Source: Phycisphaerae bacterium
GTDB taxonomy: Bacteria; Planctomycetota; Phycisphaerae; UBA1845; Fen-1342
NCBI GenBank assembly: GCA_028279405.1
Contig: JANQNU010000036.1
Span: forward strand, 248,001 to 312,000
DNA length: 64,000 bases
Direction of reading: 5' to 3'
The position numbers were made by a program, and so were the translations under genes. How positions within the stretch are numbered: position 1 is the first letter of the stretch; each line of letters opens with the position of its first letter. Of this stretch, positions 45,026 to 62,715 are shown in pieces. Under the pieces are notes generated by a model, which was given only the letters and a program-made list of their open reading frames with translations, did not search any database and had not been told where the DNA came from.

Positions 45026-45216
45026 CACTACGGACGAAGCGAGTACTCTCCTCCGCTCCGGGCAGGTACCCCGCCTCTCGAGACACCCTCGCGAGGCCGG
45101 CCCTGCCAGCGGGGCATCGAGCGAAGTGGTCGGTAATCCAGGCGACGATCGCCAGAACCGGGCAGCGACGCGCTCGCGCTGGTCATTCAGGAATCGATCA
45201 CCGAGTTCCTTCAGGG

Positions 45217-45222
45217 TACAAT
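45217..45222 (+). promoter_or_regulatory. -10 element before the tRNA-Arg fragment
   Basis: TACAAT lies 21 bases before the first base of the tRNA fragment; a weak TCGATC (45194-45199) is 17 bases upstream. The promoter of the broken tRNA appears to survive. Confidence 0.4.
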
Positions 45223-45242
45223 CCGAACGACCGAACACGGTT

Positions 45243-45281
45243 GCGCCCGTAGCTCAGTTGGATAGAGCAGCGGACTTCTAA
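45243..45281 (+). pseudogene. 5' half of tRNA-Arg(UCU), cut after the anticodon loop
   Basis: The acceptor strand GCGCCCG, TA, D arm GCTC-AGTTGGATA-GAGC, A, anticodon strand GCGGA and the loop CTTCTAA with anticodon TCT match a bacterial tRNA-Arg(UCU) base by base. The next bases should pair as TCCGC but read GTCTC, and no variable loop, T arm or acceptor CGGGCGC follows. The gene is truncated exactly at position 38. No 3' half was found elsewhere in the window. Confidence 0.85.
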
Positions 45282-45788
45282 GTCTCGCCGTGGACCTGCT
45301 CGCTTCGTCTCATCGCGGTTCTTTCGCCGACCAAGCCGCTGCAATGCGCCGAAGTCCGCAAGAAGCAATTCTTACGGTTGTCGCGACAACTGGTCGACTT
45401 CTCCGTTCGTGCGGTCGTGTCGTTGCCGAGCGTGACGTAGCCGTGCCGCATTTCGGGCACCGTCCGGTTGTATCCTGACTAAGAGAGTATCTGCACCGAC
45501 ACTCTCTAGCGGTGGCGCGAAGCGCAATCGGATCCGCCAGGTAGTTCCATCCCCGGCGACTGGCGCACCTTGAGTTAGTCAGCATTCCTAATCGAAGTTT
45601 AACGCACTTGGATATTAGAGCGAATCGTTATAAGTAATAGTTGCAACACCGTATACAAGGCACCCCAGTTTCTTTCGAATAAACACACTGCTGTCCGAGT
45701 CGCCAGGATCGCTAAGCAGTCGACAACACCAGCACACATGGCGAACTGTAGTGACAGGCGCCTGGATGCGATCGCCAACTCGCCCAAC
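45282..45788. other. junction region without intact gene, lower GC content
   Basis: No convincing gene. On the minus strand at about 45424-45510 the frame reads CRCRYSLSQDTTGRCPKCGTA, a recognisable zinc-ribbon C-terminus of the CxxCGYDL type; it is listed separately as a remnant. The rest is AT-richer than its surroundings, with short inverted repeats, and marks the left edge of a foreign-looking segment. Confidence 0.5.
45424..45510 (-). pseudogene. remnant of a zinc-ribbon membrane protein gene
   Basis: A short stretch on the minus strand encodes a C-terminal CxxC...CPKCG ribbon like that of the proteins at 25438 and 45789, but with no membrane helices or start upstream. It looks like the leftover 3' end of a gene destroyed at the junction with the tRNA fragment. 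Confidence 0.5.
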
Positions 45789-46469
45789 CTACAACGGCCT
45801 AGTCTTTCCTCTGGGAAGCAAGACGGCGCCGCATTCGGGGCAACGAGATGGATTTGACGCGATATCATATCCGCAACGCGGGCACTTGCCTTGAATTACG
45901 CGAATCCGGCGTTTGGCCATTGCAACTAGGCGCAAGACCAGAAGTGCAGCCAAAATAGCCAGACCGAGATTGCGGAAGCAGTTCATATGGACTGCGATGG
46001 ACTCGTTTCCAATCTGGTATACGGGTTGGTGCACGGACAGCGTTAGCAAGTCACTATAGACATCAATTCGGACTGGACTTTCTTCATCAAGGACTATGGC
46101 ATTCAGGTCCATGCCGACTGAGCGAGGCTCAGATGAAACAAGAACCTGAGCACTTCTCGGCCCAGGTTCGCCGTTGCCATCACAAGTCCTCTCGTCGGTC
46201 GAGAGCTCGGTCAAGTTCTCTGGTGTCTCAGGCTCGCTGACGAGGCAATATTCGTGCCGATGGGGATAGTGTGCCAAGGCCGCATAGCCATGATCCATAA
46301 TCAAGCTGTAGGGGCCGAACAGGTTGATGTGGAACAGGTCATATGCACTGGAGTACCGAGATGTTGCCTGCCAAAGCAATAAGATCAGTATCGATACTGC
46401 GAGCAGTGAAGCGCGGAGTGCCGAGATTGTACTCGATCTTTGACGCTGATCTGCGGGGATCGAAGGCAT
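45789..46469 (-). CDS. membrane protein with C-terminal zinc ribbon
   Basis: 226 residues. One N-terminal membrane helix (LRASLLAVSILILLLWQATS), a long polar extracytoplasmic domain, a second helix (FRNLGLAILAALLVLRLVAM) and a cytoplasmic zinc ribbon KCPRCGYDIASNPSRCPECGAVL. Same architecture as the gene at 25438, but the outer domain is unrelated and its base composition is clearly more AT-rich than the genome around. It lies 39 bases behind the RHS gene on the same strand, the place where immunity genes of polymorphic toxins sit. That role is only a suggestion. Confidence 0.72.
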   Translation of the reverse strand: MPSIPADQRQRSSTISALRASLLAVSILILLLWQATSRYSSAYDLFHINLFGPYSLIMDHGYAALAHYPHRHEYCLVSEPETPENLTELSTDERTCDGNGEPGPRSAQVLVSSEPRSVGMDLNAIVLDEESPVRIDVYSDLLTLSVHQPVYQIGNESIAVHMNCFRNLGLAILAALLVLRLVAMAKRRIRVIQGKCPRCGYDIASNPSRCPECGAVLLPRGKTRPL

Positions 46470-46508
46470 CAGAAGTTACTCCGCGCTAGTCGTAGGCAAG
46501 GCTAGTAC

Positions 46509-49500
46509 CTAGAGCCCGCAGGAGGCCATTGCTGCTTCGAACTCTGCGGCGAAGCTTCGTATAATCGCCAGTTCCTCTCGATCGAACGCAAGTCCTTCTT
46601 CGATCCATTGGCGCACTCTCTGCTGATGTATAGCGTTCGCTATCGCCACGTTGCCGGCGGCAATTTGCTCGGCCATATTCTCGGCCCCTTGCGTTCCGCA
46701 CGCAGTCTTTGTCACCGGGGGAAGACTGAATGGCACAAAGATCCTGCGAGCTGCTGCTTCATGTACCATTTCATGCTTCACCGTGTAGGCCGTCAGTGCA
46801 TTTGCAATACTTATCAAGGCCGGGCAGCGCGCAGCCCATGCTGGCGGTATTTGGACCGGACTAATAAAGATGTTAATAGATCCCGAATATGTGCAGCGGG
46901 TTTTCACTTCCACTTGCCATTTTGTTCCGCTCCCGTCCTCGCAACATCCGAGTTTTTTGTACTTAGTGGGGTGTTGGCAGCCAAAATTCAAGTCCATTAG
47001 AGAAGTAAGTCCAATTTGGGCATTGCCATTAGGATCATTTGCGATGTCTAAGAACTCTGGTAGGAGGAAACCCGGTATGAAATCAATGTTGGTACGGATA
47101 GGTTCTGGTGGGGCTGCCATGAGGCCAGCTGGATCGAGAGAGTTTAGCGGCGAATGAAGCCTGAGAGCGTAGCGGTTGTTGCCACCGATGGGACCGATCG
47201 GGTCCCGGGTCAAGTATCGACTTGCTCGTGTACCATACTCCCGCCATCGATTCTGATACGCATCTTTTTCTTTATCGAGTAGTAGCCCTTGATCCAGGAA
47301 TGGGCTCCCGTTGACGCCGACGAGTTCGACGGCTCCAGTGGTTCCGTTCCGGAAGGTTGGGGTACCGTAGGGCGTGTAGCTGATGCGCTGCTCGATCTTG
47401 CCGTCGGAGCTTCCGCCGATTCCGGGGCTCTGGTAGCCGGTCAGCGCGATCACGTTCCAGTTACGGTCCTGGTGATAGAAGTAGCGGCGATCGAGTTCGC
47501 TCTCAGCGGTTTCGCTACCGGCTTGCGTGTCCGGACTACAGTCATTGTTATCGCTGGGATCACTGTTGACGTCCATCAGGACCAGTTCATCGGTGTATCG
47601 CCACCCCCACAACCACTGGCGCAGCGCCCGGTCGCTACCATCGCGCGTCTCGATGATGTTCCAGCCGGGTTGCGAGGCTATACCGGCGTAGTAGAACTGC
47701 ATGGTTGTGTTTCCGCCGTCGCCGGCGAGGTATTCGGTGCCGCGGTTCTCGACGACCTTGCGCATCCGTCGGTTACGGCCATCGTACTCGTAGCTGGCGA
47801 TCCGCTGGCCCAAATCACTCTTGTCGCTGTCGGCCATGTAGACCTCGGCGAGTCGGTTCCAGCCGTCGTAGACGTACTGCCGCACGCCGTCGTTGGTCAG
47901 GTTGCCGTTGTTGTCGTAGGTGAACGAGACCTTCTGCCAGGTGCTGCTCATCGGGTCATTGAAGTCGTAATCGGCCCAGATGTGATCGCCGGCGTCAGCA
48001 ATATCGCCGTCGGCGTTCTGATCGTCGCCTGCCTTGAAGTCATCGAAGGTGATCGTGGTCGAGGTGGCAGACGTCGTCCGCCCGAGTCCGACGAAGCCGC
48101 CGGACCAGGTGTCGTCGATGGTGCCGGTGGACAGCGGCGTCTCGTCGCTGAACGAACCGTCCTGATCGGTGTCACAGGCAAAGCTCAATGTCTGGTTACC
48201 TCCCGACTCGGTCACCTTACATTGTAAACCATACACCTGACCGTCCGTCAAGCTGAACGTCGAGCTGAACGCCTTGCTGGTGAACTTGCCATCGCGCACT
48301 TCCCACAGCAGCAGCCGCTTGGAACTGCCGGTGTCGTTGATTACGGCGAAGTTGTAGTTGCTGGGATTCTGGTAATGCAGGACGATGCCGCCGTCGACGT
48401 CGTTCTCGACCTTCATATCGACCTCGACGATCCCGACACCCATACGGATGCCAGAGATCGCCAGTCGGCCAGCTTCGTCACTGTTGTAGAACTCCAGCGC
48501 GCCGGAGTTGACGCGCACATTCGCGCCCGTCGAGGTAAAGCGGCCGTCGACGGTGAACTGGCCACCCATATCGCGACAGACGAAGTTGTCGGCCTTGACT
48601 GCGGCCGAGCCCGCACCCGCCCAGACGCCGACCTGACCGGCCGCGGTCCCGAACGCCGCTGGCAACAACAAGGTCCCGGCCGCAACGATTCCGTTGATCG
48701 CGCCCGCACGGATGTCCAGCGCGATCGAGTACGTGCCGCCACTGCCGGAGACTGAGCCCCCGAGCGTGCGCAACGTCCACGTTCCCGCACTCACTTCATA
48801 CACGTAAAAGGTGGTGGCGGCCGGTCGGGCCAGGATCACCCAGAAGTTTTGGTGGTCCTGATAGCCGAAGACCAGGCCGGCGTTCTCCGTGCTGCCGACG
48901 GCGATGTCGGCACTGAGCCGCACATCCTGGAACCAGCCTTCATCGACCAGCAGTACACTGCCGTTGCCGCTGTCGGGCGCGCCGGTGACGGCTACGACCG
49001 TATCGTTCTGCAACTGACCGGACGAAGCAGACCAGGTGCCGTCGTTGTTGTTGGCGCCGTTGCCGGTGATATCCGCCACAGCCCAGTCGACCGTGTCATT
49101 ATCCGCAAAATCGTCATCCACGAACTTGCGGACCGACTCGGCGACGTAGGTGACGTCTACGATCTCATTGGTCGCGTTGTGCGTTCGCGTCTGTGACGCG
49201 CTGGCGCCGGAATTCTTGTAGTCGATCGCGGTGAAGTTGCCGAGGATGTCCATCGTGTAATCGATTTCTTGCGGGGTGGACCACTCGCTGATCACCGCGG
49301 TCTGTCCGCTGTTGAGCACGCCGACGTCGGCGTTGGTCAGTCGATTGAGCGTGTCGTAGGTGTAGATGGCGCTGTAGGGCCGCATGAACTGGACGGCCTG
49401 ATCGGCGAACTTCGGGCTGCCGTCTTCGTTGGCCTCGTAGTCGATGTCGTCGCGGGTGGTGGCCTCGTCGGCGCTGCTGACGAGCTGGCTGACAACGCGG

Positions 49501-52500
49501 CCGAAGATGTCCTTGCCGTTGTACTCGTCATCGGTACCGGTGTCGTAGTCGAGGAACGTGTCGTTACCGGCAGAGCCGCTGGTGTTGTCCGCTTTGCGAC
49601 CGACCAGTTCGGACAGGCCGGCAAAGGTGTAGGCGACGTAGGCATCGCCGCTGGCCGTACCGCGGATGGCTGCGACGCGACTAAAGGCATCGTCAGTACT
49701 GCTGGCGGCGCCGTAGTACATGTAGACCTTGCGGTCGTTGGGATACTCGACGTAGTCGAGTCGGCTGTGGTTGTCGGTACCGTTCTCGGTCCAGGCGTAT
49801 TCGACCGCGAGCGTGCTGCCGTCGACGAGACCGTCGTATTCCTGCTCGTCCTTGATCAGCTGGCCGTAGCCGTTGTAGGTGAACTCGACCTCGTTGCCGA
49901 CGGTGCCGCTGTCCTTGGTAGAGCTGTCGCGACTGGCAATGCCGGAGATGCGGCCGTGACTGTCGTAGGTCCAGACGAGTTGGAGGATGGCGTTGTCGAC
50001 GCCGCTGCCAATGGCGGTTACACGCTCGTGCGTCTTTCGGCGGAGCGTGTCGTAGTCATAGGTGATCACGCTACTGTTCTGATCCGTCCGAGTCGCGACG
50101 GTGCCGTCGACGTTGTAGGTGAACGTTACGGTGTCCGCCGACGCAGTCGACGGCTGGCCGTCACTTCCCGGATAGTGGATCTTGGTGAGCCAGACGCTGC
50201 TGACGTTGTCTTCGTACTTGTACTCCGTGACCTGATTATCGAGCCCCGAGTGGCCGGCGTCATACTCGCCGACCGCTTCGGCGGTAATCTTGGTGAGCTT
50301 GCCGTTGCCGTCGTACGCGTAGAGCGTGACGCGCTGCTTGCCCGACATGGCCGCATCTTCGGTCATCTTCGTTCGTCGCCCCAGATCGTCATACTCGTAT
50401 GTGGTCTCCATGCCGTCGGGCGCGACCATCTTCTGTAACCGACCAGCTGTGTCGAAGGTGCTGGTACTGACGTGCACGGTTGGCGACGCGGTCTCGGGCG
50501 ATGAAGCGTTGTAAGGGCTGGGATCCGTTCGACTACCGTTCATTGGACCGTCGACGCCACCATCGGCGTAGGTGCCGAAGCTAGTGTTCTGCTTGTTGCG
50601 GTCAGCGTCGTCGTAGTAGGCGCGGGTCTTGCTCGCCATGCCTTTGGCACCAGGAACTGCCGGATCGATCGTGCCGCTCGCACCGGCCTCGAGCACCCAG
50701 TGGTTGGTCTCGATCACGCGACCGCCGGAGTCGTAGGTCAGCTGGCTCATCTCGATTACCGGGTTGTCGCTGGTGTAGTCGAACGCGCCCGAGCTATAGA
50801 TCGTCGAGCCGACGCTCCGCGCGATCTGCGTCTCGGTGACTTCCCCGGCGCCATTGTACTCAGTGATCTGCGCGCCACCGCCGGGCGAGACTATTGCCAC
50901 CCGCCGATTTGCGCGATCGTAGTAGGTATCGGTCGTCAGGCTCGAGTCGAGCGTGCCGTTGGTCAACACTTCATGTCGCTCAGTCTGATAGACGCGGCCC
51001 TGCTTGTCGTAGGACATTTCGTTCAGGCGAAGGCGGTTCGTACTCGTGGTCGTCGGGTCGGCCGCCGAGGCCGGTGCGGTGCTGTACGTCGCGCTGGCGA
51101 CCATGCGGCTGAGGTTGTCGTACTTGTTGAGCGTGTAGGGCGCGTTCGGCGGCGTGGCCAGCAAGAGGCGCCGACGGAAGTCGTAGGTGAAGGAGGTGCT
51201 GTTCGAGTTGCTGCTGTCGTAGTAGCTCTTGACTTGCGTCACCAGCCCCAGTCGACCGCGCGAGTCGCCGGTCCCCGGGGTGGCCTGATCGTAGAGCCAC
51301 TCGGTGATCGTCACGTAGCCGGTCGGCGAGCCCATGCTCTCCTGGGTGGTGCGCTCCAGCTTGGTTCGACGACCGATCGCGTCCGTCGTGGTGCGCGTAT
51401 AGCCACCTTCATGGTCCTTGACCTGTACGGTCTTGACCTTCTTAACGTTGTCGGCAGCATAGCTATACGTCATCTCGTAGTAGTTCGTGCCGGAGCTGCC
51501 ATCGCCGCTGGTCGGGATCGTGTGGTAGCGCTGCACGCTGGACTGTTGCAGATTGCCGTCGTAGGTGGTCTTGGTCCAGGCAACCCAGTTGGTCTGGCCG
51601 CTGAGGTCGGTCGCGCCGTTGGGCGGATCGTTGACCGTCATGCTGGTCGCAATGCTGATCGTCTGCTCAGTCCGACCGTCCTCGTCGGTAAGCACCCGGC
51701 GAATCGGCGCCGCGGTCTTGTCGGTGGTTGAGTCGAAGTTGGGATAAGTGATCGTCTCGCTGTCGTTGTAGGCGAAGTAGGTCTTGTCGCCGTCGGGACT
51801 CTCCTGCCATCGCAGGCGGCCGACGCGATCGAACGAGCGCTTCGTCTCGCGCTTGACGCCGCTGGACGTCTGGAAGTCGTAGGCCGGCGTGGCCATCGTG
51901 TCCTTCGGCGCGGCACCGGTCCAGGTAGCCCAAAGGTTGACCATGTTCTCCTGCTCGGGAGTGACAATCCTAATAGGTGAGATCGAGCCTTGGGTCGTGC
52001 CGGTGTTCACGTCGCTGACCGTGTAGGCCAGATTGCCGGTCAGGTTGTTATAGCTCTGGTAATCGACGTTGCCTTCGGCGTCCTTCGTCCAGCGCGGCCG
52101 GCCGACATCGTCGATGTAGGTGAACTCTTCGACCGCGACGTTCGGACCGTTCTCGCTGGTGGGGATGGTCGGTCGGATGACCTTCACGACCAGCGGCCGA
52201 TCGCTGTCCTCGGTCGAGTTGGTGTCGCCGTCGTCGTCACCGGAATCCACGTAGAAGACATATTGATAGTCGGTCTGGATGCGGCTGGAATCGGCCGAGT
52301 TGGTCGTCTCGGTCGGATAGACGTAGGACGCATCGAGGTGGTATAGCGTGCGATAGCCGAAGCTGGAATCGGTGTACTCCCAGAGCCCGAGGTACTTGGC
52401 GCTGCCGTCGCTCTCCGAGTACTTGCGGACTCGCTTGCTGGCGATCCGCTTGGCGTTGGCGTCGTAGGTGTAGACGAAGACCAGTCCGTCGTTGTCCGTT

Positions 52501-54119
52501 GTGACGGCGTTCGTTGCGACGTCGTAGTCGGTGAAGCACGACTCGGTGAACAGCTTGGTCACCTGACCGGTAGCGGTGTCGCGATCGTATTTGCGGATCC
52601 AGACGGGATCGGTGTTCGCGTCGTCGGTGGTGAAGAGCACGTCGAGGAACAGCTCGCCCCAGTTGTTGGTCTCCATATAGCGCGTTGTGCCGTTGTGCGT
52701 GATCTTGCAACGCGCCGCCCAGTCGTTGCGGTTGCTGCTGGATTGCGTTGTATAGGTCAGCTCAAAGACCTCGGCGCCCGCGCCGCTACCACCGCCGCCG
52801 CAGCAACCGCCACCGCCGCCGACACCACCGGCGATGGTCTGCTTGTCACAACGGTTGCTGGAGTCGTACTCGAACTGGTAGGTGGCGTAGTCGTCGACCT
52901 GCGCATCGGTCGCGGTCAGTACGTTGGTCAGCGCCGCCTCGGCGCGATCGAAGTGCTCTGACCGCAGGATAAACTTCAATTCGTGCGCGTGACCCGGATG
53001 CGTATTGTCGTTGAAGGTCTCGTTCTCCCAGTAGCGATAGTGGACCGTTCGAACGATGCTCAGGTTGGCGCCGGTGTCGCTGGTCTTGCGGGTCTTGACG
53101 ACCACGCGGATCAGGTCGCCGACCTCGCCCACACCGTCGTCGTAGGTGCTCAGGCTGTCCTGATAGGTGAACTCGACCCGCGCCATCAGGTCGGCATCGG
53201 TAGTCCCCGAACTCTTGAACACCCGGATATAGTCCAGCTTGCCGCTGTTGTCGCCGCTGGAGAGGTAGGTGTAGCGGAAGTGGTGGCCGGATGGGTCGGT
53301 AATGTAGTCGATCCGCCCGCTGCCGTCATAGAAGACCGACAGACGGTTGCCGTACAGGTCCTTTATGTATTTCAGATTTCCACGCTCGACTGCTGTCGAG
53401 TGATCGAAGTCGTAGAAGATGAAGAGTGTGCCATCGGGGAATTCGATGCGGTACGTATCTGCGGGATCGCCGGCGTGCTCATGTGACAACACGGCGAAGG
53501 TGTCGTCGTTCGCATCAAACGTATAACTCCCAGTATTGTTAAACAAGAAGGTTCGCCGTGCGTTCGAGCGCCAAGTAATGTCCGCATCCGCGTTGGCGAC
53601 CGCCACCTCCTTAACTAGGTTCATCATGTACGTATGGAACCAGTGGTAACCCTGTGACGTGTCGCCAGGACCGTTTGATTGGTGCTCAAACGTCCGATGG
53701 TGCTTCCATTGGACTACCGAACGCCCCTTCGACGGTAGTAATAGGTCGGCCTTGCTTTCATGCACGGCTCCGGAGTGGCTAAAGACGAGGCCGATGTTCC
53801 GTCGGCTCCAGAGATCTCCGCTGGCCTCGATTGGCGAGAGTCCAATCCGTCGTGCTGAATCGTCCCAACCGCCGCCGCCGGGAGGTAGAGGCGGCGGACC
53901 TTCCCATCGTATGCAGCCATCCCCGTAGGTCTCCTCGCCTCCACCTGGAACACAGTCGCCACAGATCACGACTTCCCCAAAATAGTCCACACCCCAGGTA
54001 AAATCGCCAATCCTCATCCCTGGGAATGGTGTTACGTTCTGAGCGGTGCACTTCTCCTCGATGGCAGGAAATAGGCATAACAAGATCGTGCCGATCACGG
54101 GCGCTCTGTATGTGTACAT
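46509..54119 (-). CDS. giant RHS/YD-repeat protein with metalloprotease-like C-terminal tip
   Basis: Secreted protein of 2536 residues. AGGAGG precedes the ATG at 54119; a signal peptide (APVIGTILLCLFPAIEEKCTAQ) follows. The body is a long series of YD repeats (YDxxGRxxxxxxxxG and similar), which fold into a closed beta-shell. A Gly/Cys-rich stretch lies near residue 430-445. Two lectin-like beta-sandwich insertions (about 1675-1850 and 1850-1990) break the repeats. The RHS core ends with RYLTRDPIGPIGGNNRYALRLHSPLNSLDPAGL at about 2300-2332. The last 200 residues are a distinct tip with AYTVKHEMVHEAAARR at about 2445-2460, an HExxH zinc-protease motif, and several cysteines. The tip region has lower GC. 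Toxin or processing function is inferred from the architecture. Confidence 0.92.
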   Translation of the reverse strand: MYTYRAPVIGTILLCLFPAIEEKCTAQNVTPFPGMRIGDFTWGVDYFGEVVICGDCVPGGGEETYGDGCIRWEGPPPLPPGGGGWDDSARRIGLSPIEASGDLWSRRNIGLVFSHSGAVHESKADLLLPSKGRSVVQWKHHRTFEHQSNGPGDTSQGYHWFHTYMMNLVKEVAVANADADITWRSNARRTFLFNNTGSYTFDANDDTFAVLSHEHAGDPADTYRIEFPDGTLFIFYDFDHSTAVERGNLKYIKDLYGNRLSVFYDGSGRIDYITDPSGHHFRYTYLSSGDNSGKLDYIRVFKSSGTTDADLMARVEFTYQDSLSTYDDGVGEVGDLIRVVVKTRKTSDTGANLSIVRTVHYRYWENETFNDNTHPGHAHELKFILRSEHFDRAEAALTNVLTATDAQVDDYATYQFEYDSSNRCDKQTIAGGVGGGGGCCGGGGSGAGAEVFELTYTTQSSSNRNDWAARCKITHNGTTRYMETNNWGELFLDVLFTTDDANTDPVWIRKYDRDTATGQVTKLFTESCFTDYDVATNAVTTDNDGLVFVYTYDANAKRIASKRVRKYSESDGSAKYLGLWEYTDSSFGYRTLYHLDASYVYPTETTNSADSSRIQTDYQYVFYVDSGDDDGDTNSTEDSDRPLVVKVIRPTIPTSENGPNVAVEEFTYIDDVGRPRWTKDAEGNVDYQSYNNLTGNLAYTVSDVNTGTTQGSISPIRIVTPEQENMVNLWATWTGAAPKDTMATPAYDFQTSSGVKRETKRSFDRVGRLRWQESPDGDKTYFAYNDSETITYPNFDSTTDKTAAPIRRVLTDEDGRTEQTISIATSMTVNDPPNGATDLSGQTNWVAWTKTTYDGNLQQSSVQRYHTIPTSGDGSSGTNYYEMTYSYAADNVKKVKTVQVKDHEGGYTRTTTDAIGRRTKLERTTQESMGSPTGYVTITEWLYDQATPGTGDSRGRLGLVTQVKSYYDSSNSNSTSFTYDFRRRLLLATPPNAPYTLNKYDNLSRMVASATYSTAPASAADPTTTSTNRLRLNEMSYDKQGRVYQTERHEVLTNGTLDSSLTTDTYYDRANRRVAIVSPGGGAQITEYNGAGEVTETQIARSVGSTIYSSGAFDYTSDNPVIEMSQLTYDSGGRVIETNHWVLEAGASGTIDPAVPGAKGMASKTRAYYDDADRNKQNTSFGTYADGGVDGPMNGSRTDPSPYNASSPETASPTVHVSTSTFDTAGRLQKMVAPDGMETTYEYDDLGRRTKMTEDAAMSGKQRVTLYAYDGNGKLTKITAEAVGEYDAGHSGLDNQVTEYKYEDNVSSVWLTKIHYPGSDGQPSTASADTVTFTYNVDGTVATRTDQNSSVITYDYDTLRRKTHERVTAIGSGVDNAILQLVWTYDSHGRISGIASRDSSTKDSGTVGNEVEFTYNGYGQLIKDEQEYDGLVDGSTLAVEYAWTENGTDNHSRLDYVEYPNDRKVYMYYGAASSTDDAFSRVAAIRGTASGDAYVAYTFAGLSELVGRKADNTSGSAGNDTFLDYDTGTDDEYNGKDIFGRVVSQLVSSADEATTRDDIDYEANEDGSPKFADQAVQFMRPYSAIYTYDTLNRLTNADVGVLNSGQTAVISEWSTPQEIDYTMDILGNFTAIDYKNSGASASQTRTHNATNEIVDVTYVAESVRKFVDDDFADNDTVDWAVADITGNGANNNDGTWSASSGQLQNDTVVAVTGAPDSGNGSVLLVDEGWFQDVRLSADIAVGSTENAGLVFGYQDHQNFWVILARPAATTFYVYEVSAGTWTLRTLGGSVSGSGGTYSIALDIRAGAINGIVAAGTLLLPAAFGTAAGQVGVWAGAGSAAVKADNFVCRDMGGQFTVDGRFTSTGANVRVNSGALEFYNSDEAGRLAISGIRMGVGIVEVDMKVENDVDGGIVLHYQNPSNYNFAVINDTGSSKRLLLWEVRDGKFTSKAFSSTFSLTDGQVYGLQCKVTESGGNQTLSFACDTDQDGSFSDETPLSTGTIDDTWSGGFVGLGRTTSATSTTITFDDFKAGDDQNADGDIADAGDHIWADYDFNDPMSSTWQKVSFTYDNNGNLTNDGVRQYVYDGWNRLAEVYMADSDKSDLGQRIASYEYDGRNRRMRKVVENRGTEYLAGDGGNTTMQFYYAGIASQPGWNIIETRDGSDRALRQWLWGWRYTDELVLMDVNSDPSDNNDCSPDTQAGSETAESELDRRYFYHQDRNWNVIALTGYQSPGIGGSSDGKIEQRISYTPYGTPTFRNGTTGAVELVGVNGSPFLDQGLLLDKEKDAYQNRWREYGTRASRYLTRDPIGPIGGNNRYALRLHSPLNSLDPAGLMAAPPEPIRTNIDFIPGFLLPEFLDIANDPNGNAQIGLTSLMDLNFGCQHPTKYKKLGCCEDGSGTKWQVEVKTRCTYSGSINIFISPVQIPPAWAARCPALISIANALTAYTVKHEMVHEAAARRIFVPFSLPPVTKTACGTQGAENMAEQIAAGNVAIANAIHQQRVRQWIEEGLAFDREELAIIRSFAAEFEAAMASCGL

Positions 54120-54130
54120 TGCTGAGCCTC

Positions 54131-54724
54131 CTATTGGCCTTTAGTTCTGTTCTGTTGGAATGTGATTGCCCGCCGGGCCCAGTCGCGCCAGGCAGGATCG
54201 TCGTCCTGGGCCGCGACCTGTTGCAGCCAAGCCAGCGTCTCGGATGTGCATTTGTCCTGGCGCAGGTGGACCCGCGCCAGTTGCCCGATGATCTCGATAT
54301 GATCAGGAGCGCGCTCCAGCGCGGCGCGCAGCAACTGCTCCGACTCGTCGTACTTGCCGACTTTCTCGTAAAGAACCCCCAGGTTGACCCGCGGCTGGCT
54401 GGCCCGCGGCATCAGCTTCGCCGCGTAGTTCAGGTGCCAGCCGGCATCGTAGTACTTCCCCAACTCCAACAGGCACACGCCTAGATTGCAGTGTGCCGGT
54501 CCGAAGAATGCATCGGCCGTCAGGCTTCGTCGCAGCAGCTTCTCGGCGTCCTCGAACCGCTCGTTCGCGAGCAGTTCCAACGCTTCGTCGTTCCAGCGCT
54601 GCGCCGCCAGCCGATCGCGGCGCGGAGCACCCGCCCCGTGCAGACCGCGCTCACGATGCGCGCAGCCGCACAGCTCAATGACGAGTCCCGCACCGAGCAA
54701 GATGCGCGTAATGCGCAGCCTCAT
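54131..54724 (-). CDS. TPR lipoprotein upstream of the RHS gene
   Basis: 197 residues. The signal sequence ends in IELCGCAH, a lipobox-like LCGC, so the mature protein is probably a lipoprotein. Three or more tetratricopeptide units follow (ANERFEDAEKLLRRSLTADAFFGPAHCNLGVCLLELGKYYDAG, VNLGVLYEKVGKYDESEQLLRAALERAPDHI). Its stop is directly followed by the AGGAGG and ATG of the RHS gene, so both belong to one operon. A scaffold for export or display of the RHS protein is inferred. Confidence 0.8.
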   Translation of the reverse strand: MRLRITRILLGAGLVIELCGCAHRERGLHGAGAPRRDRLAAQRWNDEALELLANERFEDAEKLLRRSLTADAFFGPAHCNLGVCLLELGKYYDAGWHLNYAAKLMPRASQPRVNLGVLYEKVGKYDESEQLLRAALERAPDHIEIIGQLARVHLRQDKCTSETLAWLQQVAAQDDDPAWRDWARRAITFQQNRTKGQ

Positions 54725-55272
54725 CGGCGCTTCTCGATTCCTGAGTTGTCAGAGACGGGGTTGTTTACCGTGACAATCCCGCTTATGTCTCACGCCTATT
54801 CATGCGCAGACCTGCCGACGAATGCAAGAAAAAAGTGCGCGACGAACACCGCGGAATGGGTTGCGCTGCGCGCTCATTCGACGCAAGCACCAGCCGGTTA
54901 GATAGTTAGCGCGCAGACCGCCCCGAAAAAAAAGAACGCGCATCGAGTAACATGGGGGCGATTTCCGTCGAGCGCGCGCGAACCAGTGTTGCCAAAACAT
55001 GTTTCAACACCTGTTAACAGCAAGGTTGTTTCGATGAAGGGCGCTGGCAGTCACCGTTCGGGCGGCGCATGCATTCATTGTTGGATGGTGTTGGAGCGCG
55101 ATGGACAGTCTGGACCAGCTTGTCAACACCGTGCGCGCACGAAGATGGTTTTTTCTTGCAAACGAATTGCGCGATGACTACGCTTCTCAGCAGTGCGGGC
55201 GTGGGCTTCTTGTCGAAGCCTGGTTACGGGCGCTCTCATTTCTGAACAACATTGCAGGTGGGAGATGCAATC
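54725..55272. other. intergenic region without gene, divergent promoters expected
   Basis: About 550 bases. No gene could be supported. An A8 tract at 54928-54935 and several short TTGNNN/TANNNT pairs are present but no promoter is convincing. Confidence 0.4.
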
Positions 55273-56061
55273 ATGTCGACACGCACGTTGCAACAACGCG
55301 CAGGCGTATCTGCATTGGCCGTATTGACGGCAGTCCTTTGTGCGGCTGCATCGCCGTTCAGCTTCCATCCATCGCATTCGTATTCGGTCATGTGGTACTA
55401 CACCTCGTGGACCGAAATGGATGGGGTGGCATTGGGCCATGTCGACCAGCTCATGGCGGATGCTATGTTGGACGACAATTCACTTGCCTGTCTGAATCTC
55501 TCACAACTCCAGTCCGATGGTGTCTTCGAGGGTCTGCGAACATGGTACGAGGCGAACACTAGTGCTTACACGACCGCACTTCAGGCGCTCCGCGATGCGG
55601 AGGCCAAGGTGCGTTACTGGGAGGCCGCGATCGGCAACGGCGAAGATCGCGCGACGGAACTAGCGTCCGCCCAAACGGCGTTGACCACTGCGCAGTCATC
55701 GTACAACACGCAGGTGGCAGCAGCGCGCACCGCGTCGATCTCTGGATTGACCACGGAGCAAACGACGCTCGCCGATGCGCTGACCGACAACTCGGGGCCG
55801 ATGCCTTATCGCGTACTTGAGTTGACTAGTGCGCAACTGCAGGGGTTGGAGGACGCGCTCGAGACGCTCCGCCAGCAGCTAGCGGTCGCAACGTCTGCGC
55901 AGCAGCGCGCCACGGCACGGTCGACGTTCGATAGCGCCGTTACGACGGCAATTGGATCGGGGAACGTAAGCACACTAACGAGCGTTCAGGCATACCTCGG
56001 CACTGTCGCACATCGCGTGATGATGTCGCGATGTGAGGTGTTGCATGGTGTGACGCACTAA
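55273..56061 (+). CDS. secreted coiled-coil protein of unknown function
   Basis: 262 residues. The ATG at 55273 follows GGGAG at about nine bases and starts a signal peptide (GVSALAVLTAVLCAAASPF). The first mature part is short and polar; from about 90 to 240 the sequence is Ala/Thr/Gln-rich and predicted helical, with many heptad-like repeats (LRDAEAKVRYWEAAIGNGEDRATELASAQTALTTAQSSYNTQVAAARTA). It is not a family I recognise. It precedes the type II secretion operon by about 220 bases and is a plausible client or stalk protein. Confidence 0.7.
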   Translation: MSTRTLQQRAGVSALAVLTAVLCAAASPFSFHPSHSYSVMWYYTSWTEMDGVALGHVDQLMADAMLDDNSLACLNLSQLQSDGVFEGLRTWYEANTSAYTTALQALRDAEAKVRYWEAAIGNGEDRATELASAQTALTTAQSSYNTQVAAARTASISGLTTEQTTLADALTDNSGPMPYRVLELTSAQLQGLEDALETLRQQLAVATSAQQRATARSTFDSAVTTAIGSGNVSTLTSVQAYLGTVAHRVMMSRCEVLHGVTH

Positions 56062-56217
56062 TTAGCCTAACCACATTCCTGAGCCGCGCTCGCTGGGACG
56101 GAGGATGGCAAGAGAGCGGCGATAAGATTATTGGTGTTTGTGGTTCGCTTCGCCGGCTGCGCTAGCAGGTCGGTTGCAGGCGCACCGGGCGGTTTCTTTG
56201 TCGGGAACAAACAAACG

Positions 56218-56250
56218 CCCCCTGCGACTCGTGAGAGGAGCCGCAGGGGG
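56218..56250 (+). other. strong hairpin in the gspD operon leader
   Basis: A perfect nine-pair stem CCCCCTGCG/CGCAGGGGG with an inner CTC/GAG pairing lies 33 bases before the gspD GTG. No T run follows. It may be an attenuator, a regulatory-protein site or a messenger-stabilising element. Confidence 0.6.
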
Positions 56251-56283
56251 ACATAAGCGACGCCTACTCCCGGAGGAGCAGAC

Positions 56284-59200
56284 GTGTCACGGTCAAGTTC
56301 TGTCTTCGCACGTCAAGAATGGAAGCAAATCAGACCCAATCGAGGGCTTTGCGCTGGACTCGCTCTCGTGCTCGTTTGCACTATAGCCGCTGACGCGGCC
56401 GATGCAGCGCCGGAAAATATGAAATTTGGCCGGGGCGTTCGCGCCGCGCCACCAATGCTGGACTTCGGCGACGTTGTCCGTGGACGCCCCTATGTAAGAG
56501 AAGTGGGGGTGCAACTTATAGGGCGTGAGCCAGTAGCCCTAACGGCGGGGTCGGACTGTGTTTGCTTGACGCCGGCGCCGGAACGGCTCACGGCGATGCC
56601 GGGTAGGGCGTTTACCTGGTCCCTGAAGTTGGAGACCTGCTCGTTGCTTGGTGACGTCCGTAGCCGCGCGTGGCTGCAGGACATGTCGGGGCGGGTCGTA
56701 CTCGATCTACCCGTGCGCTACCGCGTCGTACCCTCGGTGTTCGCCGAGCCGCCTGCGCTCCATATGGGGATTCTCGGCAACGAGCCGGCTGACCTGCTGG
56801 TCCGAATTCACTCCGCTGACGAGGAACGCCGGGTTCTCGCCGTAGGATGTGGTCATCCGGGTGTGCTTGTTGAAGCCCAGGACCGGACGTTCGCCCCGGG
56901 TGCGCCAGCGACGCTTCGTGTGTTGGTCCAAGCGGGCGCGCCGGGACCGTTTTCGGCGGTCGTCTGGGTGGATACCGACGATCCGGAACGCCCGCGACTG
57001 CGGATTCCGATCGTCGCGACGCACGTGCCGGGAGCCAAATGCGATCCACGGGCCGTGAACTTCGGCGAGGTTCCATTCGGTTCATCACAGACGCACGAAT
57101 TGCTCATCGATTGCCCGCCCGGGACGACGATCAGCGGACTGCGATCGTCCGACGACGCGGTTCGGGTGACACAAACCAGGACCGCTGCGCGCGCGGGAAG
57201 CGAAGATATGCAGGTGCGGGTCACGCTGTCGTCGAGTCCCGAATTGCGGCTCGGTATCTTCTCCGGTCGGTTGACAGCCGATTGTCGGGGCGCGTACGAC
57301 GGCAAGATCTACTTCCATTACCGGGGCCGGGTCGTGCCCCCGACTGCTAACGATGTTTCGACGGACGAACGTGGGAATGGGGCGCCGGGCGCGGCGTTCG
57401 CCGGCGTTTGTTTGCTGCTGCCCGCGCTCTTGTCGGCAGACGAAGCCGTGCGGCTCGATTTTCCGGAGAGCGTCGAGCTGCGGATCCTCATCGACTACGT
57501 GGCGCGCACGCTGGGACTCAACGTGCTCTACGATGCGAACCAGGTTCGCCAGGAAGTATCGATGCGAGTCACGAATACCGTGAACCGCGACGAGTTGCTG
57601 CCGTTACTCCGGGCCGTGCTGCGCAGTCGCAACCTGGCGCTGCTGCCACGAATGGCGGACTGGTATGAGGTGGTACCCACCGACCAGTTCGCGGCGCGGG
57701 TTGGTGCGTCGGTCGAGGCGATTCCTGACGGTAATGGCGACAACGAGGTTCTGAGCCTGCTGATCCCGCTGGACTTCGCCGACCCGCAGCAGGTGAGCAC
57801 GGCGCTGAAGCCGTACTTGCACAAGAACGCGGCTATTTCGGTCAGTGGGCGTCGGCTCGTCCTGACCGACTTCGTCAACAACCTGCGCCGGGCGCAGGCC
57901 GTCGCGGCGCAATTGGACCAACCGGCGACAGCCCATGAGATCACGGCAATTGCTGTCCGGCATCGATCGCCGATCGAACTTGCTGCCACAATCAACGATC
58001 TGCTCCGCGAGCCCGGTGCGCCGAAGCTGCCCGGCGTCCGGTCCAGCGCGGCGGTCCAGCCTGGGCCGGAGGGCGCCAGTCTGCTCGTGCTCGGCTCCGT
58101 TGCGCTGGCGCAACGGGTTCAGTCTCTCGTGGAGCGGTTCGATGTCCCTTCCGATCGGCTGACGCGAAGCTACAACCCGCAGTACATCACCGCGGCGCGC
58201 CTACGTACACTGATCGAGCAATTGTTGCCGCAATACGACTTGCTACTGGCGGCGGACGAGTTTTCGAACACGTTGATCGTCGAGGCTCCCGACGCCGCCC
58301 ATACACGGATCGTCGAGATCATTGCACAGTTCGATCGGGCGCGGATCAACGCCGCGACGCCGCAACGGATTTACAGGCTGCTGAACCGTCGGGCAGACGA
58401 CATGTTTGCGACCCTCGGCAGTCTCTTGCTTGGGGAAGATGCAAATGCCGGCGCAGCTGGAACGTCCGCACAGAATCCGCTCACTTTCGCCAACGGCAGC
58501 GCTGGCGGGGCCGACTCCGCGCCGCGCGATGGCAACATCGGTCAGGCGACGAGCGGCGGGGTAACATCGAATGCGAATGGTGATGTTGCCGGTGCTGGCG
58601 GTCGGGCCGTGACGACGGCGTTACGTGGCGAAGGATTCTCGCTGGCGCTCGACGAGCACACCAATTCGATCATCGCGATCGCGACGCCGGAGGTTCATCG
58701 ACAGATTGAGGACCTGATCCGGCAGCTCGATCGACGCCGGCCACAGGTGTTGATCGAAGTAACGCTCGTGTCGGTCAGCGTGGAAGAGAGCGTCAATCTC
58801 GGCGTCGAGCTGCAAACGCTCGACCTCGGCGATTCGTGGGACTTTTTGCTGTTCACGTCCTATGGGCTGACAAACGTAAACACGACTACCGGGCAGCGCA
58901 CGCTCGCCGTCGCGCCCGGCGGCAGCGGGATCCTGCTCGCGCCGGACGAAGTGCCGATCGTGCTGCAAGCGTTGCAGTCCAGGGGCACGACACGGGTTTA
59001 CTCGGCGCCGCGAATCCTGGTCGACGACAACGCAACCGGTCGGATCGAAAGCGTGGCCGAGGCGCCATTCACGAGCGTCAATGCATCGGACACGGTTGCG
59101 ACGACGGCCTTCGCTGGCTTTGCCAAGGCGGGTACGCAGTTGACGATCGAGCCGCACATCGCCGAAGGGGACCACCTTGAGATCGAATACGACCTGACGG

Positions 59201-59556
59201 TGAGCTCCTTCACCGGCAGCGGCGGCGCGAATACGCCGCCCCCCCGGAGTTCGGACGCGATCAGCAGCACGATTCGGGTCCCCGACGGGCACACGGTGGT
59301 TGTAGGGGGGCTGCTGACCGAAACGCTTGCCGAGTCAACTAGCCAGGTGCCGGGTATCGGCGACGTGCCAATCCTCGGTTGGCTCTTCGGATCGCGGTCG
59401 GACAGTCGAAGCAAGGTGCGGCTCTATGCGTTCATTCGCCCGTCAGTGTTGCGCGACGAGGCTTTTGCCGACCTGCGTTACCTGAGCCAGCGGGATCTCG
59501 AAGCCGCCGACGTCGACGATGGCATGCCGCCGACCCGTTTGCAGACAATGAGGTGA
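56284..59556 (+). CDS. gspD: type II secretion secretin GspD fused to an N-terminal DUF1573-like module
   Basis: 1090 residues in one frame. GTG at 56284 follows GGAGGA. A signal peptide (LCAGLALVLVCTIAADAADA) leads to a beta-rich part (about 30-345) with two or three DUF1573/Ig-like repeats (MLDFGDVVRGRPYVREVGVQL; NFGEVPFGSSQTHELLI) and single cysteines in each. At about 360-380 lies an internal hydrophobic stretch (GAAFAGVCLLLPALLSADEA) that looks like a second, buried signal peptide, after which the secretin begins: N0 (VRLDFPESVELRILIDYVARTLGLNV), N1-N3 repeats (about 480-720) and the secretin domain (VLIEVTLVSVSVEESVNLGVELQ, VPGIGDVPILGWLFGSRS). A GTG at 57334 could start an independent secretin. 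gspE follows without a gap. Confidence 0.85.
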   Translation: MSRSSSVFARQEWKQIRPNRGLCAGLALVLVCTIAADAADAAPENMKFGRGVRAAPPMLDFGDVVRGRPYVREVGVQLIGREPVALTAGSDCVCLTPAPERLTAMPGRAFTWSLKLETCSLLGDVRSRAWLQDMSGRVVLDLPVRYRVVPSVFAEPPALHMGILGNEPADLLVRIHSADEERRVLAVGCGHPGVLVEAQDRTFAPGAPATLRVLVQAGAPGPFSAVVWVDTDDPERPRLRIPIVATHVPGAKCDPRAVNFGEVPFGSSQTHELLIDCPPGTTISGLRSSDDAVRVTQTRTAARAGSEDMQVRVTLSSSPELRLGIFSGRLTADCRGAYDGKIYFHYRGRVVPPTANDVSTDERGNGAPGAAFAGVCLLLPALLSADEAVRLDFPESVELRILIDYVARTLGLNVLYDANQVRQEVSMRVTNTVNRDELLPLLRAVLRSRNLALLPRMADWYEVVPTDQFAARVGASVEAIPDGNGDNEVLSLLIPLDFADPQQVSTALKPYLHKNAAISVSGRRLVLTDFVNNLRRAQAVAAQLDQPATAHEITAIAVRHRSPIELAATINDLLREPGAPKLPGVRSSAAVQPGPEGASLLVLGSVALAQRVQSLVERFDVPSDRLTRSYNPQYITAARLRTLIEQLLPQYDLLLAADEFSNTLIVEAPDAAHTRIVEIIAQFDRARINAATPQRIYRLLNRRADDMFATLGSLLLGEDANAGAAGTSAQNPLTFANGSAGGADSAPRDGNIGQATSGGVTSNANGDVAGAGGRAVTTALRGEGFSLALDEHTNSIIAIATPEVHRQIEDLIRQLDRRRPQVLIEVTLVSVSVEESVNLGVELQTLDLGDSWDFLLFTSYGLTNVNTTTGQRTLAVAPGGSGILLAPDEVPIVLQALQSRGTTRVYSAPRILVDDNATGRIESVAEAPFTSVNASDTVATTAFAGFAKAGTQLTIEPHIAEGDHLEIEYDLTVSSFTGSGGANTPPPRSSDAISSTIRVPDGHTVVVGGLLTETLAESTSQVPGIGDVPILGWLFGSRSDSRSKVRLYAFIRPSVLRDEAFADLRYLSQRDLEAADVDDGMPPTRLQTMR

Positions 59557-61083
59557 ATGATGGCTGCCCCGTTTCAGCCTGCCGACATCAGCCGATTGTT
59601 CGCCGAGCGCATTCCGATCCACTTTGCTCGCCGTCATACTCTGGTCGGCCTCAACGATAATGACGACCGCTTCATTCGCGTCGCGACGGATGACGCCGAC
59701 AAACAACGGATCGTCGACAATCTCGCGGTGACGCTCGATTGCGCCGTTCGACTGGAAGTCCACGATGCGGCAGCCATTCAGGCCGCGATCAATACGGCGT
59801 ACGAAGAACAGTCGGTCGATGTCGCCGGTGCGATTCATCGGATCGATGTCGAAAACGGGTCGGAACAGGCCGTTCAGGTGGAAGGCGACCTGCTTGATAA
59901 CGCGACCTGCGCTCCCGTCATCCGGCTGGTCAACCTCGTGCTGTTCGAGGCGGCGCGGCGACGAGCGTCCGACGTGCATGTGCATCCGCACGACGGCCAC
60001 GTCATGTTGCGGCTGCGGATCGACGGAGTACTGATCGACTACCAGCAGGTGCCCGGCACGTTGCGGGACGAGCTGACCTCGCGGATCAAAGTAATGGCCG
60101 GCATGGACATCGCCGAGAAGCGCTTGCCGCAGGATGGCCGCAGTACCGTCCGTATCGGCGAGCGTTTGATCGACCTACGCGTTGCCAGCATTCCCACGGC
60201 CCACGGCGAGCGGATCGTCCTGCGGCTGCTCGACAAAGGGGCGCGGCGGTATGACCTGACCGAACTCGGCATGCCCGACGATACGCGCCGACGCTTCGAG
60301 CAGTTAATTCAGCGCTCCCATGGCATGATCCTGATGACCGGTCCGACCGGCGCCGGAAAGAGCACGACGCTGTACGCGGCACTACAATGCATCGACTACC
60401 AACGGCTGAACGTGGTGACGCTGGAAGACCCGATCGAATACCAGCTCGTCGGCATCAGCCAGACCCAGGTGAGCAATCGCAAGGGGATGACGTTTGCCGC
60501 CGGTCTGCGCAGCCTGCTGCGCCAGGATCCGGACGTCATCATGGTCGGAGAGATCCGCGACGAGGAGACTGCCCGATTGGCAATCCAGAGCGCGCTCACC
60601 GGCCACTTGGTCATCAGCACCTTGCATACCAACGATGCCGCGGGCGCTCTCACGCGACTGCTCGATTTGGGCATCGAGCCGTACCTGGTCGCGGATTCGT
60701 TGCTAGGTGTCGGTGCGCAGCGGCTAGTACGCACCAACTGCTCGGCTTGCTCGCACGTGGCGCGATTCGAGCAAGCGGACCTCGCCGAACTGGGATTGGA
60801 GCCGGGCCGCGACGGATATCACGCAGGTGGCGGGTGCGAGCAATGCGACGGCCTGGGCTTCCGCGGACGCGTGGGCTTGTTCGAGCTGCTTGTGATCGAT
60901 GACGCGATCCAAGCGCTGATACATCAGCAGGCGGCCCTGAACGCGATCCGCAATGCTGCCCGACAACAAGGGATGCGCACCCTCCGCGAAGAGGGCGTGC
61001 GGCTGGTCCAGGCTGGCGCGACAACCCCAGCGGAAGTCCTGCGTGTGACGCAACGAGGTGAGCTGGTCGAAGAGGTCGCATAG
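59557..61083 (+). CDS. gspE: type II secretion ATPase GspE
   Basis: 508 residues. Starts directly after the gspD stop (TGAATG). An N-terminal domain (about 1-130) binds the inner-membrane part. The core has RLRIDGVLIDYQQVP, Walker A GPTGAGKSTTLYAAL, the Asp box ALEDPIEYQLVGISQTQV in the form TLEDPIEYQL, Walker B RSLLRQDPDVIMVGEIRDEETA and the His box ALTGHLVISTLHTNDAAGALTRLLDLG. Two CxxC pairs (CSAC and CEQC) near the end form the zinc site. All catalytic residues are present. Confidence 0.95.
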   Translation: MMAAPFQPADISRLFAERIPIHFARRHTLVGLNDNDDRFIRVATDDADKQRIVDNLAVTLDCAVRLEVHDAAAIQAAINTAYEEQSVDVAGAIHRIDVENGSEQAVQVEGDLLDNATCAPVIRLVNLVLFEAARRRASDVHVHPHDGHVMLRLRIDGVLIDYQQVPGTLRDELTSRIKVMAGMDIAEKRLPQDGRSTVRIGERLIDLRVASIPTAHGERIVLRLLDKGARRYDLTELGMPDDTRRRFEQLIQRSHGMILMTGPTGAGKSTTLYAALQCIDYQRLNVVTLEDPIEYQLVGISQTQVSNRKGMTFAAGLRSLLRQDPDVIMVGEIRDEETARLAIQSALTGHLVISTLHTNDAAGALTRLLDLGIEPYLVADSLLGVGAQRLVRTNCSACSHVARFEQADLAELGLEPGRDGYHAGGGCEQCDGLGFRGRVGLFELLVIDDAIQALIHQQAALNAIRNAARQQGMRTLREEGVRLVQAGATTPAEVLRVTQRGELVEEVA

Positions 61084-61086
61084 GGC

Positions 61087-62289
61087 ATGCCGACGTTCGC
61101 GTACAGGGCACTTACTGCAACGCAGCAATCGGCGGCGGGTACGCTGACGGCCGACACGCCGGCCCAGGCGCGGATGAGCCTCCGCGCGCGCGGCTACTGG
61201 GTGACCGAACTTGCGCCCATGAACAATGGCGCGCGGGGTTGGGTATCGCTTCGGCGCCGCGGGCAACAGGCGGCGATTGCCGAACTCTGGCGGAATTTGG
61301 CGCTATTGCTGCAAGCCGGAGTACCGCTCACGGATGCGGTGAGCATTTGTCGCCGACAACGGGGCGGTCCGCTCGGCGCCATGCTCGACGAAATCATCGA
61401 AGAGATCCGCGGCGGTCGCTCGTTGACCGAAGCGCTAGTCGGGCATCCGCGTTGGTTCGACGAGTTGGCCCGCGCCATGCTCGGCGTCGGTGAGCAGTCC
61501 GGCGATCTGGCCACCGCGTGCGGCGAGTTGGCGACCTACCTCGAACGCGCCCAGTCGACCGCGAATCGGCTCGCGACCGCATTGATCTATCCGGCAATTC
61601 TGACACTCGTCGGCATTGGGGTTGCTGGATTCCTGATGACATACGTGGTGCCGCAACTCATCGAGGTGCTGGTCTCGGCGGGCCGGGAGCTGCCATGGCC
61701 GACGCGCGTGCTGCAGGTCTTGACGAACGTACTCACCGCGTGGTTCTGGCCGATCTTGATCGTCGTCGGCGGGATTCTGGCGGGGCTTGGCGCACTCTAT
61801 CGTACGTCGACTGGTCGGCGCGGCTTTGAGCGCGGTTTGCTCCGCATCCCAGTCGTTGGCGATCTCGTTCGTAAGTCGGGCGTCGCGCGCTTCAGCATGA
61901 TGCTCGCAGCGTTATTGCGTGCGGACGTGCGCTTCACGACAGCCGTCTCGATCGTCCGTAAGAGTTTGCCGCCGGGTTTGCTCGCAGCCGAGTTGCAGCG
62001 ACTCGAAACCGCCGTCGAAGAAGGAGCGGCGATCCGCAAACCGCTCGAGGGCAGTGTTGTCATCCCGCCGCTCGTCACGCACCTGCTGCACGTTGGCCAG
62101 GAGAGCGGTGAGCTTTCGCAGATGCTCGACCAGGTTCGTGGCAGCTACGAGGACGAACTTCGTATCGCCACCCAGCGGTTTCTCGCTGTGCTCGAACCGA
62201 CACTGATCGTGATCCTGGCGCTGGTTATCGGCTTCATCGTTTTCGCAACCGTGTTACCCATCCTGGAATCCACGAGGATTGTGCAATGA
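61087..62289 (+). CDS. gspF: type II secretion inner-membrane platform protein GspF
   Basis: 400 residues with two copies of the T2SSF domain: LWRNLALLLQAGVPLTDAVSICRRQRGGPLGAMLDEIIEEIRGGRSLTEAL and FSMMLAALLRADVRFTTAVSIVRKSLPPGLLAAELQRLETAVEEGAAI, each followed by hydrophobic segments. It is the platform on which GspE works. It begins three bases after gspE and its TGA overlaps the gspG ATG (ATGA). Confidence 0.95.
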   Translation: MPTFAYRALTATQQSAAGTLTADTPAQARMSLRARGYWVTELAPMNNGARGWVSLRRRGQQAAIAELWRNLALLLQAGVPLTDAVSICRRQRGGPLGAMLDEIIEEIRGGRSLTEALVGHPRWFDELARAMLGVGEQSGDLATACGELATYLERAQSTANRLATALIYPAILTLVGIGVAGFLMTYVVPQLIEVLVSAGRELPWPTRVLQVLTNVLTAWFWPILIVVGGILAGLGALYRTSTGRRGFERGLLRIPVVGDLVRKSGVARFSMMLAALLRADVRFTTAVSIVRKSLPPGLLAAELQRLETAVEEGAAIRKPLEGSVVIPPLVTHLLHVGQESGELSQMLDQVRGSYEDELRIATQRFLAVLEPTLIVILALVIGFIVFATVLPILESTRIVQ

Positions 62290-62711
62290 GAGGACGATCA
62301 GGCCGGTCCATTCGTCGCGCGATGACGCTCGTTGAGCTAATGGTCGTCGTCGTGATTCTCGGGATCCTCGCGACAACCGTCGTCATCTCGGTTCGCGACT
62401 ACCTGGTCACCGGCAAGCAGAGCGCTGCCAAACAAGAAATCGCGCAGTTGGTCTCAGCGCTCGAATTGTTCTACCTCGAAAACGACCGCTACCCGTCGTC
62501 GCAGGAGGGGCTCGCGATCCTGCTCGAACGCAGCGAGCAACACCCGGATGGGATTATCCGCAGTGGCGATCTCAACGACCCGTGGGGTAATCCGTATGAG
62601 TACGTCCAACCCGGCGTGCACGGCAGCTTCGACATCGTCAGCTACGGTGCCGACGGTCTCGAAGGTGGCAGCGGCGGCAACGTCGACATCACGAGCTGGA
62701 CCCAGGAATGA
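62286..62711 (+). CDS. gspG: major pseudopilin GspG
   Basis: 141 residues. The prepilin signature RRAMTLVELMVVVVILGILATTVV has Ala, not Gly, before the cleavage point and Glu at position five. The C-terminal half has the calcium-binding GspG fold: YLENDRYPSSQEGLAILLER, DLNDPWGNPYEYVQPG and FDIVSYGADGLEGG. It forms the pseudopilus shaft. A GspO peptidase is not encoded in this window. Confidence 0.93.
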   Translation: MRGRSGRSIRRAMTLVELMVVVVILGILATTVVISVRDYLVTGKQSAAKQEIAQLVSALELFYLENDRYPSSQEGLAILLERSEQHPDGIIRSGDLNDPWGNPYEYVQPGVHGSFDIVSYGADGLEGGSGGNVDITSWTQE

Positions 62712-62715
62712 CTCC

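Follow-up and report, generated by a model that had tools for sequence, protein, structure and literature searches.

A half tRNA-Arg(UCU) gene at the probable left end of a 68-kb island and the 5'-side integrase family associated with it

The half tRNA and the island beside it

The window, the whole 64,000-nucleotide stretch analysed here (G000:C57:248001-312000), contains half of a tRNA-Arg(UCU) gene, GCGCCCGTAGCTCAGTTGGATAGAGCAGCGGACTTCTAA, which lies at C57:293243-293281 in contig coordinates. Its 39 nt are free of mutation and comprise the acceptor 5' strand, the D arm, the 5' strand of the anticodon stem and the complete 7-nt anticodon loop. The base that follows is G, where an intact tRNA would continue with TCCGC, and ARAGORN and Rfam scans of the window called no tRNA at this position, their sole call being a tRNA-Leu. 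The exact 39-mer has two copies in the 5.6-Mb genome, the second being the start of a complete tRNA-Arg(UCU), so the half tRNA is not a chance resemblance. The original prediction had raised the question of another tRNA-Arg(UCU), and the genome has one complete copy, 68,080 bp downstream of the half on the same strand. In public genomes, 37 of the 39 stretches with the 39-mer run on into the cognate 3' half. Two public loci (L036:2409-2447 and L053:344-382) have the same 5' half with the same cut point, and in these assemblies a complete tRNA-Arg(UCU) lies on a separate contig (L070, L050). The L036 and L053 halves are likely independent 5'-side insertions; an integrase of the family described below was not found at either half-tRNA locus.

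The identity between the two copies extends beyond the tRNA. It forms a 45-bp direct repeat (C57:293237-293281 and 361317-361361, same strand, 68,080 bp apart) that begins 6 bp ahead of the tRNA and runs as far as the last base of the anticodon loop. This bears out the original description of an intact 5' half whose 3' half is replaced, the sequence departing from that of the tRNA directly after the loop. Neither an integrase nor the 3' half had been seen in the window, and both were located outside it on contig C57, the former beside the complete tRNA (Table 1). Beyond position 64000 the 3' half occurs twice, once in the complete tRNA and once as an exact orphan at C57:362648-362688.

The DNA between the repeats holds varied cargo. 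Close orthologues of its GspE (62-64% identity) are present in 4 of 26 family relatives only, a patchy distribution expected if the type II secretion genes are cargo. Further cargo includes an ECF sigma factor, Ser/Thr kinases, a DNA methylase, HerA-like ATPases and DnaK/GrpE/VWA genes. A second tyrosine-recombinase-like gene, weakly recognised, lies mid-island at C57:335978-337228 (L078:5978-7228); this gene and the mixed composition of the island suggest that it may be composite. Elsewhere in the window, positions 40698-41972 encode a member of a 424-aa protein family that has no Pfam match and is found in 23 of 27 family genomes, with up to 11 matches per genome.

Table 1. Features of the locus, in window positions unless marked C57 (contig) or L (locus)
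Feature	Position	Strand	Remarks
Integrase-gene relic, same family (CTLKELGDRFLNDQRERVAAR)	45157..45222	-	Just upstream of half tRNA; 83% identity over 66 bp to the island's integrase gene, same orientation
45-bp direct repeat, left island end	45237..45281	+	Identical to C57:361317-361361 (window-equivalent 113317-113361)
Displaced 5' half of tRNA-Arg(UCU), very probable attL	45243..45281	+	Exact match to first 39 nt of complete tRNA at C57:361323-361396
Anticodon loop CTTCTAA, putative strand-exchange segment	45275..45281	+	Identity with complete tRNA ends directly after loop
In-window part of 68-kb island	45282..64000	.	Bounded by att repeats, with Pfam content and patchy GspE; continues to C57:361361 (window-equivalent 113361)
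Inverted pair GGTTGTCG/CGACAACT, putative P' arm site of integrase	45376..45391	.	95 bp inside left end
RHS/YD-repeat protein, 2536 aa, cargo	46509..54119	-	Pfam RHS_repeat; NCBIfam Rhs_assc_core
Type II secretion genes (secretin, GspE, GspG, pseudopilin), cargo	56284..63213	+	Pfam Secretin, T2SSE, T2SSG, N_methyl
CBASS-like defence set	C57:337271-342447 (L078:7271-12447)		capP-like peptidase 337271-338167; oligonucleotide cyclase 339788-340969; patatin-like effector 341293-342447
Excisionase-family HTH protein	C57:358248-358640		Small; adjoins integrase
Tyrosine integrase	C57:359573-360970	- (opposite to tRNA)	465 aa from likely start; divergent, directly 5' of complete tRNA
Two direct GGTTGTCG copies	C57:361248 and 361260		75 and 63 bp upstream of complete tRNA

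Both sides of the tRNA site bear traces that may be older. The integrase-gene relic ends 14 bp before the 45-bp repeat, and a similar relic precedes the half tRNA of the relative G015. The orientation of the relic is that expected if an earlier island of the same integrase family once occupied the site, which is how we would read it. On the other side, a 1.25-kb segment with an azoreductase-like gene (C57:361397-362690; L079:13397-14690) separates the complete tRNA from the orphan 3' half. The orphan and the segment together may be what is left of another insertion into this tRNA, made from the 3' side; no integrase remains near the orphan.

The integrase family and its arm motifs

The gene directly 5' of the complete tRNA encodes a divergent tyrosine recombinase. 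Its open reading frame spans 359573-361183, and the start was set near 360970 by alignment with relatives. Against Pfam Phage_integrase the island's copy scores 18.9 bits, below the cutoff, and five relatives score 30-42 bits, with the cutoff passed in all five. The canonical catalytic set of RKHRH plus Tyr is incomplete in the family. The canonical TGxRxxE reads GGFGNTDC, which places Gly at Arg I, and His II is Tyr (YxLR); the Lys, Arg II, GH and Tyr are kept. Profile alignments to IntI4 and XerA agree with both replacements. An arginine two residues ahead of the catalytic lysine (R-x-K) is present in all 18 sequences inspected and may substitute for the missing Arg I. The island's own integrase carries a 50-aa repetitive insertion (GIPGDTDRGLPGDSNRG...) in the catalytic domain, at codons about 325-375 (roughly L079:12060-12210), that is absent from all relatives aligned, and the enzyme may be inactive because of it.

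Relatives of this integrase occur widely in the phylum and have a marked preference for one side of the tRNA. Matches were found in 24 of the 61 genomes searched, the window's own genome included, as well as in a distant family of the phylum (four genomes). The phylum of the window's organism is probably Planctomycetota, judging by a HYExAFE protein and the style of its genes. Twenty-seven of the 28 relatives that lie beside a tRNA are divergent from it and sit at its 5' end, several of them as truncated relics. They target 12 anticodons: Arg-UCU, Arg-CCU, Arg-ACG, Thr-UGU, Thr-CGU, Ser-GCU, Ser-UGA, Phe-GAA, Met-CAU, Lys-CUU, Lys-UUU and Leu-UAG. As a control, the seven other tRNA-linked integrases in the window's genome were examined, and every one is on the 3' side of the tRNA. 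The lone exception among the 28 is a distant relative, L100, found 3' of a tRNA-Pro; it too lacks Arg I, which rules out a strict rule by which the absence of Arg I dictates the 5' side. Searches of phages, plasmids and IMG/VR returned no relatives of the integrase, and no description of its family was found in the open-access literature.

The presumed arm sites are legible by comparison of the two island ends. The palindrome GTTGTCGCGACAAC at 45377-45390, which falls within the span of the inverted pair, is the only one of its form (GTTGTCnnGACAAC) in 112 kb, where about 0.005 would be expected, and the same motif stands as two direct copies upstream of the complete tRNA. Across islands, the complete tRNA is preceded by direct repeats at about -75 and -63, and the inverted pair lies at about +95 to +125 past the crossover at the far end. 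The motif varies in type between elements (GGTTGTC, GGTGTC, GGTATC) and matches between the two ends of each. Of 10 islands, 8 were positive at both ends in an automatic arm test, and shuffled sets gave 0.01 of 10; when ends were paired across islands, 22 of 90 pairs were positive, all between islands of equal motif type. The two negative islands, G046 and G165b, have near-matches visible by eye. Most integrase loci for which no far end is known have direct repeats at an equal distance as well. Because a matching motif is found at both places, the half tRNA in the window and the complete tRNA outside it can be taken as the two ends of one element. In addition, many rebuilt tRNAs (for example L083, L091 and L090) have a CGTAAGTCnTTAT-like motif about 15-25 bp ahead of them, possibly a further arm site or a component of a tRNA promoter supplied by the element.

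A proposed route of insertion and its alternatives

The same layout is repeated in nine further islands, at loci with enough readable contig, where a displaced 5' half in direct orientation ends at the anticodon loop. These are G015 (Thr-UGU, 28.4 kb), G023 (Arg-CCU, 43.8 kb), G046 (Arg-CCU, 29.7 kb), G060 (Phe, 13.8 kb), G047 (Met, 16.0 kb), G212 (Thr-CGU, 11.0 kb), G351 (Leu-UAG, 42.1 kb) and two in G165 (Ser-UGA, 16.1 kb; Arg-UCU, 12.3 kb). The boundary of identity in the other islands falls at the loop end or within 2 nt of it, and in the distant family a displaced 5' half was present in all four islands tested. The other islands tested either lay on a short contig or yielded no half in the stretch examined.

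This recurrence, the direct repeat, the complete tRNA at the far end, the adjoining integrase and the matched arm motifs all favour the proposal, made from the window alone, that the half tRNA is the remnant of an attachment site bordering foreign DNA. It is very probably the attL of a 68-kb integrative island, C57:293282-361361, that would have been inserted into the tRNA gene by its own tyrosine integrase. The repeat, the rebuilt tRNA, the integrase, the arm motifs and the nine parallel islands can all be read in the DNA, and the steps that would connect them are as follows. The integrase would recombine the tRNA gene of the chromosome with an attP that includes the tRNA-Arg(UCU) 5' half, with strand exchange probably falling within the 7-nt anticodon loop. 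Integration would strand the old 5' half at the left end, and at the right end the 5' half brought by the element, joined to the 3' half of the chromosome, would make up a full tRNA again. The enzyme probably holds attP through arm sites, namely the two upstream direct repeats and the inverted pair about 95 bp past the crossover, which gives a predicted attP order of P direct repeats, 5' half, CTTCTAA, GTCTCGCC and inverted pair. The excisionase-family protein would be the likely directionality factor. Since element DNA lies upstream of the rebuilt tRNA, its promoter must presumably now reside in the element.

Searches for the uninterrupted site and the circular form gave little. The proteins that flank the island on the left and on the right are both common in the family and were never adjacent in any relative, no genome of the same genus being among those compared. 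Around tRNA-Arg(UCU) in G002, in G055 and on one public contig, no flanks shared with the window locus were found. The attP junction was absent from IMG/VR, which says little on the circular form.

Three other explanations of the locus were weighed against an island ending at the complete tRNA. A single larger element of about 69.4 kb, with its left edge at 45282 and its right edge at the orphan 3' half (C57:362648), would have split the tRNA and carried the complete copy as spare cargo; in keeping with it, the complete tRNA is flanked by a 5' half to its left and an exact 3' half to its right, each with its break at the anticodon loop. The P-arm repeats and the integrase, however, stand at their usual fixed distance from the complete tRNA and not from the orphan 3' half, the exact 45-bp repeat with its 6 bp of 5' flank would have to be a coincidence, and in eight relatives the 8-18 kb inspected on this side of the tRNA contains no 3' half. 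Such an element is very unlikely.

The chance that the half tRNA is a functional, transcribed half-molecule is slighter still. Its 39 nt without mutation would suit such a role, but a fresh attL would be equally unmutated, and relatives keep halves of many unrelated isotypes at their island ends. The original prediction had also described its promoter as seemingly intact. This was not confirmed: a scan of 45050-45450 found no sigma-70-like promoter, no terminator was found, and the DNA just upstream is the integrase relic. Equally improbable is a misjoin of contigs at the tRNA repeat in this fragmented assembly (92 contigs), since an artefact would neither recur in the single-contig genomes G023, G165, G212 and G351 nor give both sides of the junctions a matching arm motif at the distance expected.

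With the half tRNA read as the attL of the 68-kb island, we lean towards the view that its integrase belongs to an apparently undescribed, phylum-wide clade specialised for the 5' side of tRNA genes. This clade would combine a relocated catalytic arginine (R-x-K) with a fixed attP plan, in which two direct repeats 12 bp apart lie upstream and an inverted pair downstream, and would use at least 12 anticodons, each insertion exchanging the 5' half and promoter of the tRNA. If this is true, the host's tRNA supply runs from mobile DNA, since the 5' half and the promoter are the element's.

Comparison with known systems

The half tRNA itself is ordinary biology; the integrase family behind it is less so. 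Islands on the 5' side of tRNA genes are a kind already known from the Islander survey of Hudson, Lau and Williams, which reports a 5' tDNA fragment in 159 of 3919 tRNA islands (PMC4383910), and from pTN3-like integrases. The present locus has several features of the 5'-fragment class. The complete tRNA and its cognate fragment share one orientation with the island between them, the fragment lies upstream and ends at a known crossover sublocation, after the anticodon loop, the integrase gene falls inside the interval (C57:359573-360970), and the 68,080-bp length is within the 2-200 kb range. The Islander 5'-fragment islands likewise have a tyrosine integrase, a split and rebuilt target tRNA, an upstream displaced fragment and an anticodon-centred site; the parts of that account consulted describe no single integrase family or attP architecture, in contrast to the family here, with 27 of 28 members on the 5' side and 12 anticodons (PMC4383910). 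The pTN3-like integrases, compared by description only, also use the 5' half of a tRNA gene as attB, but belong to archaeal elements and were called unique in archaea (PMC8371274). Tycheposons, from a second-hand description, are similarly islands that carry cargo and a tyrosine recombinase and adjoin tRNA genes (PMC10872708). The seven classical integrases of the window's genome are tyrosine recombinases and neighbours of tRNA genes too; they differ in lying 3' of the tRNA, as judged by integrase position, and the six with a readable motif all keep the usual arginine.

The catalytic site also has parallels. The CTnDOT integrase, IntDOT, lacks the first catalytic arginine at its usual place and another, downstream arginine substitutes for it; IntDes, reported solely from Desulfovibrio and of unknown function there, has a shifted arginine and a change of the first His to Tyr (PMC8138268). 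Both resemble the present family in the absence of Arg I from its usual place, and IntDes also in the tyrosine of YxLR, a likeness by description only; both come from other bacteria than the window's family. R-x-K may add another displaced catalytic arginine to those described up to now for CTnDOT-type integrases. Rare as a class, 5'-side insertion into tRNA genes is the consistent habit of this one integrase clade, and both attP arms are readable by comparison. The clade offers a ready system for asking why most tRNA islands go to the 3' side, how integrases move among tRNA isotypes and how hosts tolerate a replaced tRNA promoter.
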